Below, piece after piece: positions 2,632 through 64,000 of a stretch of 64,000 nt of DNA. A program made the position numbers and the translations under genes. Numbering within the stretch: the stretch's first letter is position 1; each line of letters starts with the position of its first letter. The stretch is from Strix aluco (taxonomy: Eukaryota > Chordata > Aves > Strigiformes > Strigidae), in contig NC_133933.1 in NCBI RefSeq assembly GCF_031877795.1, forward strand, positions 67,658,003-67,722,002. The letters are read 5' to 3'. The notes beneath the pieces are model-generated. The model made no database searches, was not told the origin of the DNA, and was given only the letters and a program-made list of their open reading frames with translations.

Positions 2632-52246
<49,615 letters not shown>

Positions 52247-54286: not shown

Positions 54287-54408
54287 TTAACTGTCGTCTT
54301 GGCAAATAGCTGCCCTGAGGAGCTCTTGAGTTTCTTCTGTTTGTTGACGGACTTGCTCAAGGAGTTTGGCCATTTGGCTTTTTCTGAATGCTAATGAAAA
54401 TTCCGGAT
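54287..54408 (-). CDS. ARM-like gene, last coding exon with coiled coil
   Basis: Acceptor tttttcctcttcag (read on the minus strand); phase 1 in; TAA at 54287-54289. Encodes DPEFSLAFRKSQMAKLLEQV then RQQTEETQELLRAAICQDDS. A 30-residue amphipathic helix suggests a C-terminal coiled coil or dimerisation helix. Confidence 0.85.
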
Positions 54409-57400
54409 CTGAAGAGGAAAAATAAATGTTAGGCAACCTGCTGGTTTTCCCTGTATTTTAATGCAGATGCTTAGAAAGCTTTATATTTCAGGTTAGATAC
54501 AGTTGATGGTTCTTATTACAGTGTAAAGTATAGAGAAGTTAGAACAATATTCTTCTACTACACAAAGATACTAATTGAGTTTTCATCCCTATGACTGTTC
54601 AAGATTGTTTGCTGCTAAAGTCTCCTAATCTACATGTCTAAAGCTCAGTTGCCAAATTCAGCCTTATGCAACAGGTGCATACCAAGACGTAGCAGGCTTT
54701 TGGCTCTGGCTCTACATATGTGAAGATACACTCTATATACATTTGTTACCATATTATAACTCTCATCTGTACTCAACTTCTACCCAAAACCAAAAAAACG
54801 AATCAAAAATAGAAAAAAATCAAGGAACAGAATGTAAAGTATGAAAAAGATGTGAGACTTCCCAGCTTTAACACCAGCTAATCATGTGATTTGCTTGCTT
54901 TATCAAAATAAAATAAATTCATATTTGAAAAGCTTTTAGGCTGTGTCTAGTGCCAAATATTCTTATATTGGATAAAAACATCTGTACCTGAAGTCCTGTT
55001 TCCCTGCTGATCAAAAAGCCTTTAGTTTTAAAGCAAACAAACAAAAATCCCTGCCTTTACCGTAAAATACTTAAAAACAGGTAAGGTAACAGCCACCCTT
55101 GAGATTATTCTGTTTGCTTAAGCGAGCAGAGCTAGTCGCCAGAGAAGTTGCCCAGCATTGTCATGTCTGTTACAAAGCAATGCCCGGGGCAGGCAGGAGC
55201 AGGCAGCGCCCAGGGGCTTGGCCCAGCAGGAAGGACATACCTTCTCGAAGTCTGCAAAATGTAGAGATGCCCAGCTGCTGAAAGCGGATCTCTTGGTGGG
55301 TAAGAAAATTCTTGAGGTAGTCCTGAATCTCTCCAATGTGATGCTTCAACAAAAGGATCATTTCTTCTGCATAAATGGGAGAACCACCGGAGATGAATAG
55401 GAGCCTTTAAAACTGATTTTTTTAACATCATTTAAGATTGTTAATGACTCGTCTACCTTCAGCTACAACCAACATTACTGTGAAGAATGGCAAAGGATGT
55501 CCATGTACTACAGCCTCTTATGGTATCGCTGGTACCTCAGGTAAATAAAACGCTGAGCGGGCTGCTGTGGTAGGAAGCTGGTCCTTGTGCAAGCTGCATG
55601 CTGATATAGGGACTGATCAGGCTGTCGTGCGAACCCATCCATGAAGCGATTATCCTGCTGGACTCTGTTCACTACTTGAGAGTCTGTTCTGTTGCAAATC
55701 CTCAATGGTAGGATTGAAACAGGTTTGCATTTTCCCTTACTAAAGACTCATTACAGGCTTTGGTTTCTCTCACATCTAAGGATTAAAATCTAACCACGCT
55801 TTTCTAAAGAACATGGCAAGAATCATATGACTAGCTTTTTCTTGCAAGTCTCAAAGGCTCTCAGCTGTGTGGGACAAGTATATTAGGCATAAAGCTCTTT
55901 GTTTTCTGCAGGTAAGAATAGTGCTCTTCCCGTTCTCTCTCAAACTTAAAAAAAATACAGGCTACATTCTTAAAAGCCACTTCACTGTTCCTGCTAATCT
56001 AGTCTAGAATTACAACAGCAGTGTTGTTCAGTAAGACGCCTTCCTCTTGCTGGCCAGGGAGCTTAGTTGATACATTTTGGAACACAACCACCTCCTTATA
56101 ATTGTCTCTCGCAACCTCTGCTTCTATCTGTGGGGAATGCCATCACCTTGTGTATACTGAGAAGGAGGGTCAAACAGAAAAATGCAACAATCTGTCTTGT
56201 CTTGAAACATTTTTTCATCATTCCCTTGGTAAGGAGTGTTCTATGCTATCCCCCTTTCCTACTTAGGTTGTTTTTAATGACCCCAGAATGGCTACAGACT
56301 AGCCCTGAAGAATGGTAGTGCTTGAGGAAGGCAACCAGCAGCTGAATCAGATCTTTATCTATGGTCCATTTTAATCCCCGGGCTTTCTCATGCACTCAAG
56401 CACTGGTTTTTGTGTATTTCAAGGGTGACTTGTAGGTGCTTTTATGCTAATAAATATGTAGAGACCAGATGCTATAGGAATGTTAAAGGTTGTTTGGTGC
56501 CTGACAGCTAACTCATTTGGGAAAGGGCTCATTTCACTCCAGTCAGTCATAAATCTCTTTGAAAGCAGAGTTAATGCTGTGTGACAGTTACCGTGACCTA
56601 TCATGTGCTGGATGATGGAGGCAGCTTGAAAGGATGGCTCAGTATGTTCCAGTTGGCCAGCCAGTCTCACCAAGCATTTTGTCAAGGGTTCATCCATCCA
56701 TTGGACCATGCGTAACGTGGCTCCTTCTGGAAGACAGAAAGATAAGAGAGTAGTCTGTAAATAGAAACTCCAGTGTTGAAGAAATGAAGATGAGAGGTCT
56801 GCCAGAAACCATACTGCCTAAACAGGAAATCCTTCATGCAGCTAGAGAAGCAAAATAGGTGCTGAACTTGTGCAATATGTATGTTTAGGTTGTAAAAAAG
56901 GGTCATGTCCTGAGGTTATGCTCTCAGTAAGGTAGGGCCGTGGATTTGATTCATAGAAAGACTGATGGGATTTTTAATTTGTTGGTTCTGTGTTCTGAAA
57001 GAATGAATCACTTCATGTACAAGATCCACTCTTGCCCAGTGGGCATCTCTTGCAAAATTAAATGTGACATTCGCCAGTTGCGTGGCAATTATACCAGATA
57101 CAAGAGAGGAAATGTTTGACAGACAGTATCCAATGCTGGGGCAGGCGGGGAAAATTTACACTGATCCTCTACCATGAGGAGTGCTGTATGTTCCACAGGT
57201 GCTAATTTGGGATCTCTTAAAAAGTCTATGTGCAAAAAATTTCAAGAGAAAGAGCCACTTATTATTTTAGTCTTTTTTAATTCTTATATTAGTTTGTGCT
57301 ATTGTGAAATGAATTCAGCCAGAGAAACTGGGTGACATTACAAATCAAAGTAGACAGACCACGTACAACAGTAAAGTTCAGCACAAAGAATTTCGAGTAA

Positions 57401-60400
57401 AAAATTTTAAGCAGTTCAACAGAAAAAAAGTGCAAAACAGAGCCCACGTGTCCTGCCAGTGAGTCAGATCTTGGTCTTGAAGCTTCTGGCAAAATTCCCA
57501 GTGAATTTAAAGAGGAAGACCTGGGCTGTATGTCCACCTGTACTTCATCTCCTATTAGGATTAATAAAGGACATGTACACTCTCAGATTAAGCCATTTAT
57601 GGTGGGGTTGCTTCCCTACCTTGCTTTGCTAACTCAGCAAGGCAAGATGTCACATAACGGAGAGAGTCTTCTTGAGTGTCGGTAGAAAGCATGGTCTGGA
57701 GGAGACCTTCAACACATGGGCTCTCAATGATTCTCTACAACAAGAGAAAGATTCATGTTTAGCACTTCCATTATGTTTTAGTGGTGTCCGAGGACTTCCA
57801 AAGTACTGAATAACTCTTTGCAATACTGAGGGCTAAAACATTTAATAATGGAAATGTCTCCTCTCAGATCTACCACAGCCAGGTGACAAACACCTTGGGT
57901 TGTTCAGACATCACCTGATTTTAGGTATCTTGCCAAACAGGCAATTTCCAGAGCTTGCTCTGTCTGTGGGATCTTCTCATGATCACAGATCACTGCTGTA
58001 CCCAGTTGTATGTTAATATTAAGCTGTCATTTGTTCAAGTCTTGCTGCAGAGGTAAATAAGCTGAGTGCTCCATAGCAAAGCCTTGGGAAATGTGGAAGT
58101 CTTTCAGTTTCTCTTATTTGCCTCCAGGGCTTTGAAAACTTCCTAGTGTTGAAATGCTCTGATCTGCAGAAATGTGAGATGACCTCTCACTAGCAAAAGT
58201 GAGTTCTGGTTCTGGAGAGAAATGTTATGAATTAAACATTTTTGTGTATCCCTTATCTTTTAGGTTGATTCTGCTATGCCAAAAGTGGTATTGGACAGCA
58301 TGTCTCTGTACTGGGATGTACATTTTAGAGACTGAGTTGAAAACAGATAAGAGACTTCACCTGTGCTGACCTGGATTAAAAGCACATGAGACTAAGAAAT
58401 GAATCCTGAATGAGTCACCTGGAGGTGACTGGTTACTAGTGAAGTTGAACCACAAAGTCAGCTCTCTGGGAGGTCCCAATAATGGAAGCTGCTTGCTCCC
58501 TAAGGCAGCTCAGGTGTCTATCAACAAAAGGGAGTATCTTTTTTTGTGCGCTCATTTTATGTTGCAGTTTCTCAACTTGCTGCTTAGAGGCTAAAGCGGG
58601 ATTCAAGACTGCTGCCTTCCAAGCTCCCACACTCTGTTCGTGTCCTACTGGCATAACAACACCTTTTCTTCCTCTTGTGCCAAGGACTCGTGTTTTAGGG
58701 ATGGTTCATTCTTGGAAACCTGGTGCCCCCACTCAGGTCTGTGGATTCACTTGTGCAGTTAGAGCTAAATACTCTATACATTATAAAGCTTTATGAAGAT
58801 GAACCAGCTCCCTGCTGATAACAGAATAAAATCACAGAATTTAAGTGACAAATACGGCAATTTTTTTAAAGCAAACTTTGAAAAGATGATCCATTTTTAC
58901 TCTTACTGGGGGCCTTGAGTTTGAGAGAATCTGTTTCCCTGCAAAAATTGACTTCACAACTATCAGAGGTTCATATAATTCTTATCTTAGTGTAAATAAA
59001 AAAAAAAAAAGTTTTCCTTTTGGCTAGTTTAAATCTCTGGAACTAGTGGTAATCGGATCATGAACAAAGGAGAAAAAAAAAAAAGAACTGAATCTCAAAA
59101 AGCAGGTACTAGAAAGTGGGAAAAAAACAGACTAGGATTTGGGTTTTTTTTCCCCCAATATTGATTGTTACTAGTGGCACTGTTTGATTAAGGTACTCTT
59201 AAAAGGCAAGGAGAAAGGAAGTGCATCTGTGGATATGGATTTCATTAGAAGCAAAGTCAGCAATAGAGATCTTTATAGCAGCTTGGCACAACTAGTATCT
59301 TACCAAACAGGCAAATCGTATATCAATATCTGGGGTTATATTTAACAAACTGTGAGTGAAATTAGATCAGTGTTGAACACTGTAAATGGATAACTAAGGG
59401 CAGCCGAAGAGTGAGAGTTAGGAAATAAGGGTTCGGTTTATAACAAACCTCAGATTTTCCTGGAGGGTTCCTTTAATTAGTAAGAAATGTCTTTGTTAGA
59501 AGTATGTTTTATACCTATGATGCAGTCATTCTAATTAGGTAACCACATCACTCATAGGAAAAATTAGACATTTCTTATTTTCATTAGCATTTTTGTATTG
59601 TATTGGAAAAATATGAATAAAACCCCCTTTCATTATGGCACATCAGGTCCTCTTATTCATACACACAATTCTGTGTAGAGTATCCTTGATGTATGCCTCA
59701 TTTAAAAAAAAAATATCTGTGGGTAATGCTGATTTGATATAAATATAATTGCAACCTCCCAGGGTCTAGTTCAGTGACAGTGACCTACCTGTATGTTTTT
59801 GGAAAGGCTCAGGTTTTTGATGATACAAGCAGTATGGCCAACAATCACAGGGTCTGTTTTATGTGCTGATAGTAGCATCCCCAGGCTCTGTAGTAGCTCA
59901 GCACATGCCAGAGTGTCCTGAAAAGAGCAACCAGAATCTCAATTACATCAGGTATGGACAACACAATGCAGCTTTGCAGCAAACTATAGATAGATAGATC
60001 TTAGCTCTGAAAGATGAGCATTACTTAGCTCGTTTAAACCAATGGTGTAGTGTCTGGGTGCTGTGCTTTTTCTCTCAAAATATGGTCTACTGACTGGCAC
60101 TGATATACAGAGCGCTTGCTATGAAAAGCTGGAGTCTTTAAGGTCCAGTAGTTTACTTTTGTTTGCATCAAACACTTCCCAGAGGTTGTTGGTGGTCAGG
60201 GGAAGGATGTGTGATCCTGACTGGAAGGAGAAGTGGTTAGGGTACGTGTGAAAGGCGAAAGTAGGTGGTGAAGTAGCAGCAGCAGCAGCATGTCCTTGAG
60301 TACCTCATCAACTTACCTTGCCTACAATAATGGACTGTTTGTGATCAGGCATCACTTCAGTAACATGTTCCAAACAGCATCTTCTGAGTTTAGACATATG

Positions 60401-61842
60401 TTTCTCTGCTGCCTGATGGATATTTTAGAGGGACTTTACTGAGTTCCTCTCTCTCTGAATGTAGTCTTCCTCCAATTACCACTAGCATTAATTGAATCAG
60501 ACCTTCTCAGTTTGGATTACTGCCCAGGTAGTTTCCTCAGTAACAGTATGGATTAAGGGTGCACTGCTGTTTCTAAGAGAAACCTGATCTCAACAGGCTT
60601 TGGCTTAGGTCTACAGTTAAAAGCAAAATATTTCCTCTTGGAAGTGTTTTTACTTTCAGTTTCTTTCCCTTAGGAATTTGAGTTCTTTATGCAGTTCTTA
60701 TGCTTGTTAGTAATGAACTATGTTATTTGTGCTACTTAGAAATTGAGACACATTAGCAAGAGTGTTCAACATAAAACAGATCATCGGTCCTACATACAGT
60801 TGAGAAAAATCGCATAATTCTGAAACCTGTGAAATGTCAGGATAACCGAAGCAGCATTGAAAGGCAGATGTCTTTAAAAATTAGTTTAACTTGCATCTTT
60901 TACTTAGGTTAAATTGCAAAAATGTATCTTATTTTCTTTTAATAACAGCTGACATCTTCACTTCTGTTCGTTTTAAGCACTGTCACAACCAGCAATCCTA
61001 AAATAAAACATGAAAATAGATGGAAAGGGCAGTGCTATGCCTAAACTCAGGGCATTTAAAGAATCCTGTATGCCGATATAGCTGTAAATTCTCTCTGGTT
61101 TTATTTTCCTTTCTCTTCAAAGGCAGAAATAATATAATTTTAGATAATCCAATTAAATTACCATTGATGACTGTTTTCTGTGCTTTTGCACCGTGTCCTC
61201 TTTTCTATATAATCCCATCAGTTGCAGCACCCTTATTTGATTTGCTACAGCCTGACAGGAAGAAATTTTCTATGGACTATAAATGAATTTTCTAATATAT
61301 AATGACTTCCCTGCCAAGCTCTTCTGTTTATTTAGGACCTACATTAGTAAGTGACAGTATTTTGCTGAACCTCTTTTCTGGTTGGTATATGGCTGGGATC
61401 CAAATTTTGTTTTCTGGCTGAGTCCTGCACAGTACGAGAGAATCACGAGAAAACTGAGTAAAAATGGATTGGTGGTTTAGATGGATATTGATCTAATTTC
61501 TCCCAAGATTTAAAAAAAAAAAAAAAAAGGCAAGGAAAAGCATTCCAGCAGCAACTGTGCTTACAATTGCAATGCTGCACTCACATCCCTTATCCAGGGA
61601 TTTCTTGCCAAGATAAATATTATCCCCTGTTTACCAGGTAGCAAGATGGGAAGGCAAAGTTATTTTGTACCTGGAGTGGAAAGACAGTGACATCATCTGG
61701 AGTAGACAGACCCCTGTCACCCTGACTTCCAGGTCTTTGTTCAAAGGCATATGACTTAAAGGGCTGTTTTCTCACAAAGCCTGACTCTTTCTTTAGTATT
61801 TCAGGGTTGGCCTGTCCTTGTGAGAACTGAATAAAATTCCCC
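54287..61842 (-). CDS. Unidentified armadillo/HEAT-like repeat protein, C-terminal part, 7 exons
   Basis: Seven exons on the minus strand (61671-61842, 60317-60412, 59789-59917, 57620-57734, 56592-56726, 55241-55366, 54287-54408) join with GT-AG borders and phases 2,0,0,0,1,1,1 into 297 open codons plus TAA. After a ~57-residue polar N-terminal segment, the protein becomes regularly amphipathic and helical with Leu/Ala/Ile spacing of armadillo repeats (DTLACAELLQSLGMLLSAHK; VGHTACIIKNLSLSKN; LRYVTSCLAELAKQ; LTKCLVRLAGQLE; FQAASIIQHMIGHEE; FLTHQEIRFQQLGISTFCRL). It ends in a short coiled coil, FRKSQMAKLLEQVRQQTEET. I do not recognise the family member. STKLD1-like pseudokinases with ARM-like C-termini are one guess, but no kinase motif is seen in the window. 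The 5' end is not resolved. It is convergent with MAP7. Confidence 0.82.
55241..55366 (-). CDS. ARM-like gene coding exon
   Basis: 126 nt, acceptor cccatttatgcag, donor gtatgt; phase 1 in and out. Encodes EEMILLLKHHIGEIQDYLKN then FLTHQEIRFQQLGISTFCRL, an apparent ARM/HEAT helix pair. It joins the previous exon seamlessly (MIGH|EEMILLL), so no exon is needed in the 1.2-kb intron between them. Confidence 0.87.
56592..56726 (-). CDS. ARM-like gene coding exon
   Basis: 135 nt, acceptor tctttctgtcttccag, donor gtaact; phase 1 in and out. Encodes EGATLRMVQWMDEPLTKCLV then RLAGQLEHTEPSFQAASIIQ and HMIGH. The exon covers about one 42-residue ARM repeat unit. Confidence 0.87.
57620..57734 (-). CDS. 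ARM-like gene coding exon
   Basis: 115 nt, acceptor ctttctcttgttgtag, donor gtaggg; phase 0 in, 1 out. Encodes RIIESPCVEGLLQTMLSTDT then QEDSLRYVTSCLAELAKQ, again about one ARM repeat. Confidence 0.87.
57735..59788 (-). other. Intron of ARM-like gene
   Basis: 2.05 kb with A-runs near 58998 and 59076. No exon is required by phase and none is seen. The introns 54409-55240, 55367-56591, 56727-57619, 59918-60316 and 60413-61670 are likewise empty apart from (AGC)5 at 60275 and A17 at 61512. Confidence 0.7.
59789..59917 (-). CDS. ARM-like gene coding exon
   Basis: 129 nt, acceptor ggttgctcttttcag, donor gtaggt; phase 0 both sides (43 codons). Encodes DTLACAELLQSLGMLLSAHK then TDPVIVGHTACIIKNLSLSK and NIQ. 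This is the clearest ARM-like unit, with the short-helix/long-helix pattern and a conserved-looking Asn near the end (IKNLSLS). Confidence 0.88.
60275..60290. repeat. (AGC)5 microsatellite
   Basis: Five AGC units in the ARM-gene intron just 3' of the exon at 60317-60412 (27 nt from its donor side). Confidence 0.85.
60317..60412 (-). CDS. ARM-like gene coding exon
   Basis: 96 nt, acceptor aaaatatccatcag, donor gtaagt; phase 0 both sides (32 codons). Encodes AAEKHMSKLRRCCLEHVTEV then MPDHKQSIIVGK. The acceptor is followed by further CAG triplets, so its exact 5' border could shift by a few residues. Confidence 0.8.
61671..61842 (-). CDS. ARM-like gene coding exon, polar linker upstream of repeats
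   Basis: 172 nt, acceptor aaaacttccctcttgcag, donor gtacaa; phase 2 in, 0 out. Encodes GNFIQFSQGQANPEILKKES, then GFVRKQPFKSYAFEQRPGSQ, then GDRGLSTPDDVTVFPLQ. Its outgoing phase fits the exon at 60317. It is not clearly helical and is supported by splice signals, phase and 57 open codons, not by homology. A longer antisense-strand frame here (61801-62031) is a competing frame with no splice support. Confidence 0.62.
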
Positions 61843-64000
61843 CTGCAAGAGGGAAGTTTTCCAGTGCTTGCTGGGAATCACTGTCAACTGCCTGGCCAGG
61901 AAATTGCTAAAAAGGGGTTTAAGCAGGGAGAGGAGCTCCTGTGAAGCATTCCCGGGTGTTTGCTTCATGGTAACGAAAGGGCAGATGAATTCTGCCCTAT
62001 TGTATCCTGGGTAGTATTTGTAATAATTCAAGCATCACTTGACTTGGTTGTAAAGGTTAGCTTTGTTCGGTGGTTTGTTTTCTAACAGCTGTTCCCATGG
62101 AGAAGTCCCTCTTTCACTCACAGAGAATTCAGCCTGAGTTAGAGAAAGAAACCTTGAAAAGACTTGAAAAACAGGCCAGAAAAGGCATGGAGGTGGGGAG
62201 GCAGGATATGAGTAAGGAGAGGTCAGCCTCTTCTCAGAGTGCCCAGGGCTCGCTTGCACAAAGCAGCAACATTCAGTAGTCAGGGACAGCCGTGTTTGCT
62301 CACTAAAACAAATTTTGAGATGTAGATACTTCTCACTGGAGAATAAACTCTCAAGGGTGATGCTTTGCTTTCCAGCCTCCTGCTGCTGACCCTTTTCCCC
62401 CATGAAGGACGGGCTGTTTCACTGCTGGTGTAACAAGGCTGAGCTCCCCATGCCTTTGTTCCCACTGACGCTGTGCTGTGCCCTTTGTAGCTGGGGGTTT
62501 GAAGCACTGGTAAAGACAGGTTGCAGGAGCAGGGAGGAAAGGAGTTGCGGGTAATCTTTGCTGGGAGAACAAGTGCAAATAGTGTCTGGGGGCAAGAAAA
62601 GCAAATGTGAGGACAATGTTCCAGCATAATGCCTCATACTGAGCAACATTTTTACTGTGTAAATAGCCTCCAACTAACTTAATGTATTTCAGTTGTAAGC
62701 TTCTTGAGAGCAAATTGTGTTTTGATTGCATGAGGCAGTTTGTCAAGCAATGAAGATGTTTGGTGCTAATGCAGTCAGCACAAAACCTACAAAGCCACAG
62801 TGCCTTTGAAAAGCTCTGTGCTCTACTTGCTGCTTCCCAGGCGTTGAGCTTACCTGTTTTTTCCATCATGTCCTGGAGTTAGAGGAGGTGCAATGTGGTT
62901 CACACTGTGCTGTGTACGTGCAGCTGAGGTGTAAGGCACCAGGCTTCCAATACCCAGAGGAAATTTCAAATCAGATTGAATGTATTTCAGCCTCAAGAAG
63001 CACCTAAGCCTAGCTGCGGTTACTCAGTCTGTCACTACTGCTTAAAGCAATGTGGCAGGAAAGGTTCTCACAATTTTTTTGCTTTATCTGCCCAAACTCT
63101 GACTTTCTTGAAAGGCTATTGTTCGCTTAAGACACTTATCAAAAACCTTTCATATCCATGTTCATAAGGATGTCTTTAATTACTGTAATGGAAAAGCACA
63201 TTTAAAAATAATTTGTCAGTTGCTACTTACTGATTTTTCTGTTTTATGTGGAGGATGAAAGTACAGCAGGGGTGTCTGTTTTGTTTATTTGCTGTGTTTA
63301 TTTCTAGTCAGACTTCTTCATGTATTTGCATAGCGTTGCACTGTTAATGGTGGTGTTAACCCTGAAGGTGGGCAAAAGAATCATTCTGTAACTAAGGACA
63401 TGTGGAGACACAGGAAAGTCCTAGTGAATTAGCTAAAGATAGACAGGATTTCAAATTGTATTAGTCCCCCTTGCTGTCTTGATCCTAATTCAAAACATGC
63501 TAAATTTATGCAAATGTACTTTTAATAACTGTCTATATAGGGAAGTGATGTGTTTTTGCACTTACTTTGCACTGATGCACTTTAAATGCATGCTCTAACT
63601 TAGTTTTTCTGTTTTTCAGTGTGTGGAGAAGCTCTGTAGTCAAGGACTAACTTCCTCGGCTGCCCCCATGGTTGCAGTCTCTCATGGTGCTATGTGTGTC
63701 CTGCCCCTTGTACACCCATCTGGAGATCTACAGTCTCTGGACTCTGCAGAGTCCCTGCACTCCCTGCAACTCTGGGGACCACAGGGAGGTGCAGGGCAGT
63801 ATCCACACATCCAAGGAATCTGACACCTGTCTCTCACGCCCCCCCCGCCCTTGGCCCCCTTACAGGTAATCTGATTAACTGCAGGATCCTTTGGATCCCA
63901 CTCACCACAAAAAATATGCTCCTCGGGTAGTTAGTGACAGTGCAGATACAGCTGACAAAACCTCATTATTTTGGGTGGGAGAGAGAAGGGTTGGGAAATC
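61843..64000. other. Unassigned end of window, 5' side of ARM-like gene
   Basis: Contains the candidate exon at 62854 and the longest open frame in the window (62351-62869, minus, 172 codons; no recognisable motif). A GC-richer block at 63620-63865 is bordered by splice-like signals on the plus strand. No promoter could be identified. Confidence 0.5.
62854..62872 (-). CDS. Candidate upstream exon of ARM-like gene (minimal extent)
   Basis: A strong donor (AACAG|gtaagctc on the minus strand) is preceded by a frame open upstream to about 63024, whose outgoing phase (2) matches the exon at 61671. It would read ...HSVNHIAPPLTPGHDGKN. The 5' border is uncertain: the acceptor ctcctctaactccag gives a 19-nt exon, and more distal AGs give up to ~170 nt. 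No in-frame ATG is present, so it would not be the first coding exon. Confidence 0.3.

Follow-up and report, generated by a model that had tools for sequence, protein, structure and literature searches.

The minus strand of a 64,000-nucleotide stretch of the Strix aluco genome (contig NC_133933.1, positions 67,658,003 to 67,722,002; hereafter the window) was found to carry the 3' part of a gene for an armadillo (ARM) repeat protein resembling yeast Vac8. The protein is read here as a lipid-anchored, Vac8-like ARM adaptor on an organelle membrane, with a probability of about 0.6. An intact reading frame, an ARM fold, the likeness to Vac8, an acylation-type motif at the N-terminus and conservation across the tetrapods listed below are apparent from sequence or model. 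The gene is real, is predicted by annotation pipelines and is apparently unstudied. A preliminary description made from the letters of the window had called it unrecognised, which holds in so far as no study is apparent and fails in that automatic annotation already contains the gene for many birds, reptiles and frogs.

Spliced alignment of the window and its flanking DNA, guided by the Grus protein, gave 14 exons on the minus strand with AG/GT borders throughout and a reading frame of 574 residues, intact across all of them. The exons within the window encode the C-terminal 208 residues. They are given below with the number of relatives matched by tblastn, counted among the 20 database proteins that made up all matches of the exon chain in the preliminary description.

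54287..64000, minus strand: portion of the Vac8-like gene that falls within the window, its 3' part (genome search, spliced alignment)
59789..59917, minus strand: exon 10 of 14, residues 367-409, 129 nucleotides (nt), 19 of 20 relatives
57620..57734, minus strand: exon 11 of 14, residues 410-448, 115 nt, 19 of 20 relatives
56592..56726, minus strand: exon 12 of 14, residues 448-493, 135 nt, 19 of 20 relatives
55241..55366, minus strand: exon 13 of 14, residues 493-535, 126 nt, 19 of 20 relatives
54287..54408, minus strand: exon 14 of 14, residues 535-574 with the C-terminal helix, 122 nt including the stop TAA, 18 of 20 relatives

The upstream exons were placed by searching the owl genome with an orthologue, followed by spliced alignment on the flanking DNA. 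They lie beyond the window and are given in window-scale coordinates.

64126-64259, minus strand: exon 9
65354-65399, minus strand: exon 8
66224-66349, minus strand: exon 7
67576-67658, minus strand: exon 6
68667-68789, minus strand: exon 5
74998-75117, minus strand: exon 4
76294-76413, minus strand: exon 3
77346-77465, minus strand: exon 2
80574-80799, minus strand: exon 1

The gene extends to G000:C3:67738801, 16.8 kb past the end of the window (G000:C3:67658003-67722002). Exons 2-5 measure 120, 120, 120 and 123 nt, are each entered in phase 1 and correspond to about one ARM repeat apiece.

The preliminary description had proposed a seven-exon chain on the minus strand, and this could be rebuilt with AG/GT borders, consistent phases and 296 residues plus a stop; its regular helical-repeat product was found to consist of ARM repeats. 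Five of the seven exons, the last five, are genuine (tblastn matches in 18-19 of 20 relatives), and the two 5' exons (61671-61840 and 60317-60412, minus strand) are false, being matched in none of the 20 and looking like chance. The relatives in which a genuine exon was missed were P0017, P0019 and P0020, all shortened models. Conservation in other birds, the lack of which that description named as a refutation, was observed for the five genuine exons in all ten bird models P0001-P0010, with E values from 4e-24 to 2e-13. In 17 of the 20 relatives 69-71% of the chain was covered, which corresponds to the genuine exons; the values for the remaining three were 83, 43 and 28%. The 296-residue chain gave Pfam matches to RAP80_UIM, ARM_LIN_2nd, Herpes_UL1 and CARD (E 0.01-0.18) and six PDB matches (E 0.084-1.3), all of which look like chance. 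The chain consists of the C-terminal part of the protein and two false exons; the likeness to Vac8 was revealed only by full-length orthologues. That the locus holds no gene at all, merely a chance exon chain or a pseudogene, would suit the two false exons; such an outcome has a negligible probability, since the conservation of exons 10-14 contradicts it, as do 14 intact exons with AG/GT borders, identities of up to 93.6% to bird models and the presence of the same protein in frogs. Database models P0002, P0003, P0004, P0008, P0012 and P0013 were observed to lack exons 7-9 or 8-9 and hence have shortened solenoids; these may be annotation errors or splice isoforms.

The family, which the preliminary description could not name, was assigned by profile search, alignment and fold match. 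Yeast Vac8 was matched over nearly its whole length (E 1.6e-76, 261.4 bits), compared with E of about 1e-19 for the best other natural protein and 6e-46 for a designed armadillo protein. The alignment has few gaps, begins ahead of the first ARM repeat and shows 31% identity over 489 positions. Vac8 was also the top fold match in the VIA-align structural comparison. On these grounds the owl protein is almost certainly a full-length homologue of the Vac8-like type. With the solved Vac8 structures (PDB 5XJG, 6KBM, 6KBN, 7YCJ) it shares the ARM solenoid over nearly the full length, the part ahead of the first repeat included, and differs in having about 40 more residues ahead of the aligned part (79 in the model, 40 in Vac8). 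Neither ODAD2/ARMC4 nor importin alpha or beta-catenin was the best match among the solved ARM proteins in the profile search: ODAD2 scored 69.3 bits, importin alpha-7 73.9 and plakoglobin 67.5. These proteins have the ARM fold in common with the owl protein at no more than 74 bits, and importin alpha and beta-catenin show 13-18% identity to it in the listed structural alignments. ARM_ARMC5 was also tried and rejected, its 42-67 bits in four proteins being below the family cut-off of 79.9.

The comparison set consisted of solved ARM proteins; that no chain of ARMC3 appears in the VIA-align list does not count against this protein. ARMC3 is likewise an ARM protein, longer than the owl protein and with other parts. 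It has been proposed as the mammalian counterpart of Vac8 (PMC8664900, PMC9735501) and is termed a mammalian orthologue of Vac8 in a review (PMC9735501). The owl protein could accordingly be pictured as a member of an animal ARM group of ARMC3, ODAD2 and ANKAR, Vac8-like through shared ancestry only, and ODAD2 indeed ranks high in the list of natural proteins that follow Vac8. This is improbable given the gap of 69 bits against 261, the length of ODAD2 (1044 residues), and a nearly full-length Vac8 alignment that has few gaps and starts before the repeats, a comparison from which ARMC3 and ANKAR were absent.

The owl protein begins with Met-Gly-Gln-Leu-Cys-Gly-Arg-Cys and thus has the residues of the Vac8 type, both the Gly2 for myristoylation and the N-terminal cysteines. 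The palmitoylated cysteines of yeast Vac8 are given as Cys4/5/7 (PMC6678646), those of the owl protein being at 5 and 8. Met1, Cys5 and Cys8 were invariant in 42 of 42 sequences chosen by hand as full-length from 132 proteins (alignment A4). Gly2 was present in 105 of 118 N-termini matching a pattern that itself requires both cysteines, for which reason the conservation of these was measured only in the 42-sequence alignment; the other 14 of the 132 proteins fell outside the pattern and were mostly shortened models. Gly2 was replaced in one caecilian and in twelve turtle models, which differ from Vac8 in having Ala, Ser or Asp at this position with Cys5 and Cys8 kept:

P0012, P0054, P0056, P0058, P0059, P0060, P0063, P0065, P0069, P0077, P0081, P0084: turtle models without Gly2

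The replacements suggest that N-myristoylation was lost in turtles. What all have in common would be S-acylation, to which most of the sampled lineages would add myristoylation.

Three arginines in the groove of Vac8 presumably bind partner peptides. In the tetrapod protein this triad is only partly conserved in the alignment, and a shared mode of groove binding with partners different from those in yeast is therefore the likeliest reading of the sequences. For the Vac8 of Cryptococcus few of the yeast partners were found, and it is nevertheless called a true orthologue (PMC12734321); the arginine triad is thus possibly not family-defining. Invariant columns were concentrated in residues 101-300 (56 of 85), which would likely form the main working surface, and the exons within the window encode the more variable C-terminal part.

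In the mechanism proposed, the N-terminus would receive its lipid through S-acylation at Cys5/Cys8, joined in most of the lineages sampled by N-myristoylation of Gly2. The anchor would hold the ARM solenoid against the cytosolic side of a membrane, the late endosome or lysosome being the likeliest; extended peptide segments of partner proteins would lie in the concave groove, and the protein would work like Vac8, as an adaptor or tether at the surface of an organelle. Here we infer the lipidation, the identity of the membrane and the partners. A lipid-anchored membrane adaptor is probable; a lysosomal location in particular has somewhat less than even odds. The motif and the fold point to membrane attachment and not to one organelle, and the groove residues differ from those of yeast. 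An ARM adaptor anchored instead to the plasma membrane or the cilium, and serving signalling or ciliary functions that have nothing to do with vacuole or lysosome biology, would fit these points. It would also fit the low and tissue-biased expression of chicken LOC421690, which is reported in a pituitary-enriched set of 25 genes that also includes DNAH5 (PMC5148799). This alternative has about one chance in four; against it, the similarity runs nearly full length to Vac8 and not to the ciliary ODAD2.

The distribution was examined with two profiles, candidates being the proteins that share most words with the query. With E values no higher than 1e-10, the first profile, of ten sequences (nine sauropsid), matched 210 proteins; the second, of ten sequences including six amphibian and two reptile, matched 235; the best 120 were taken in each case, giving at least 146 distinct relatives overall. 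Named relatives among the matches listed were birds, crocodilians, turtles, tuatara, squamates and amphibians, with frogs well represented. The 12 best of 120 long alignments to database proteins had 91.8-93.6% identity, all under bird names. The bird models matched are called 'vacuolar protein 8-like' or 'uncharacterized'; models with these names, from reptiles and amphibians as well as birds and including uncharacterized LOC entries, represent the same protein as the owl copy under pipeline-given names, some of them (e.g. P0002, P0003) differing in the lack of exons 7-9 or 8-9. In coral and Nematostella tables the name 'vacuolar protein 8' is likewise used, there taken from KEGG or BLAST. 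No mammal, fish or invertebrate is named among the 20 matches of the exon chain, the best 120 of 210 and the best 120 of 235 matches, mammal genomes not being part of the search. The frog line split off before the mammal and reptile lines parted, and the presence of the gene in frogs together with the absence of mammals among the matches listed hints at a loss in mammals.

In a tree of 45 tips, built from alignment A4 with P0144 added, amphibians, lepidosaurs, squamates, turtles, crocodilians and birds were each monophyletic. Archosaurs were not recovered, nor archosaurs with turtles; the support for the frog clade was 0.165, and the root on yeast Vac8 is long and unreliable. Distribution and tree fit one gene passed down by descent better than a novelty of the sauropsids. 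A move to this place in the sauropsid lineage, considered in the preliminary description, is not supported as the origin of the gene, given the amphibian copies.

The Vac8-like gene sits on the opposite strand between MAP7 and BCLAF1, the latter identified by position because PF15440 cannot separate BCLAF1 from THRAP3. Three joined plus-strand pieces at about 35.2-39.1 kb matched the MAP7 family PF05672 (E 2.9e-28). Three further charged plus-strand pieces at 2.6-15.4 kb gave E 0.021 when joined, and MAP7 perhaps begins as early as 2.6 kb; two single frames gave no Pfam match and a 66-residue piece gave E 0.3. The proposed tail-to-tail arrangement with MAP7 agrees in strand and order, the last exon of MAP7 not having been located. 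On the other side, plus-strand exons lie 17-20 kb beyond exon 1:

L012:4682-5608 and 7040-7753, plus strand: THRAP3/BCLAF1-family exons (PF15440, E 7.1e-27 and 3.3e-32), divergent from the Vac8-like gene

An opposite-strand protein-coding gene between MAP7 and the THRAP3/BCLAF1-family gene, as had been proposed, is thus present in the owl. In the human genome we take MAP7 to be followed by BCLAF1 on the same strand with no such gene between, as given in the preliminary description. Long GC-rich open frames were observed at L011 ~4000-5500 and may mark the promoter island of the THRAP3/BCLAF1-family gene. An open frame at 4341-4667 (plus strand) resembles part of a reverse transcriptase from a CR1-type long interspersed nuclear element.

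A literature search found no study of this vertebrate gene, the only experimental trace being a single tabulated entry on the chicken gene LOC421690, named 'Vacuolar protein 8-like', which is likely the same locus as the owl gene. It is listed as one of 25 pituitary-enriched genes, with mean pituitary values of 0.56, 0.82 and 0.61 fragments per kilobase of transcript per million mapped reads at days 21, 22 and 42 (PMC5148799). In yeast, Vac8 is described as a vacuole hub that recruits autophagy factors and starts autophagosomes (PMC8664900) and as a tether of nucleus-vacuole junctions (PMC7290522). A survey from 2011 places vac8p 'in fungi and plants' (PMC3141441), and Hollenstein et al. 2021 state that whether mammals possess such a coordinator is unknown, mentioning ARMC3 as a suggested homologue (PMC8664900). 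A full-length relative of Vac8 with an acylation-type N-terminus in birds, reptiles and amphibians would provide a vertebrate counterpart that can be tested in chicken cells or Xenopus. The more far-reaching version, in which this protein is the true Vac8 of tetrapods, retained by amphibians, reptiles and birds as a lipid-anchored lysosomal hub and lost in the mammal line, is tentative and rather unlikely. Should it hold, the Vac8 coordinator sought in mammals, with ARMC3 as candidate, would be missing there, chicken and frog cells would still carry a lipid-anchored hub of the Vac8 type on their lysosomes, and what mammals use instead would become a question.
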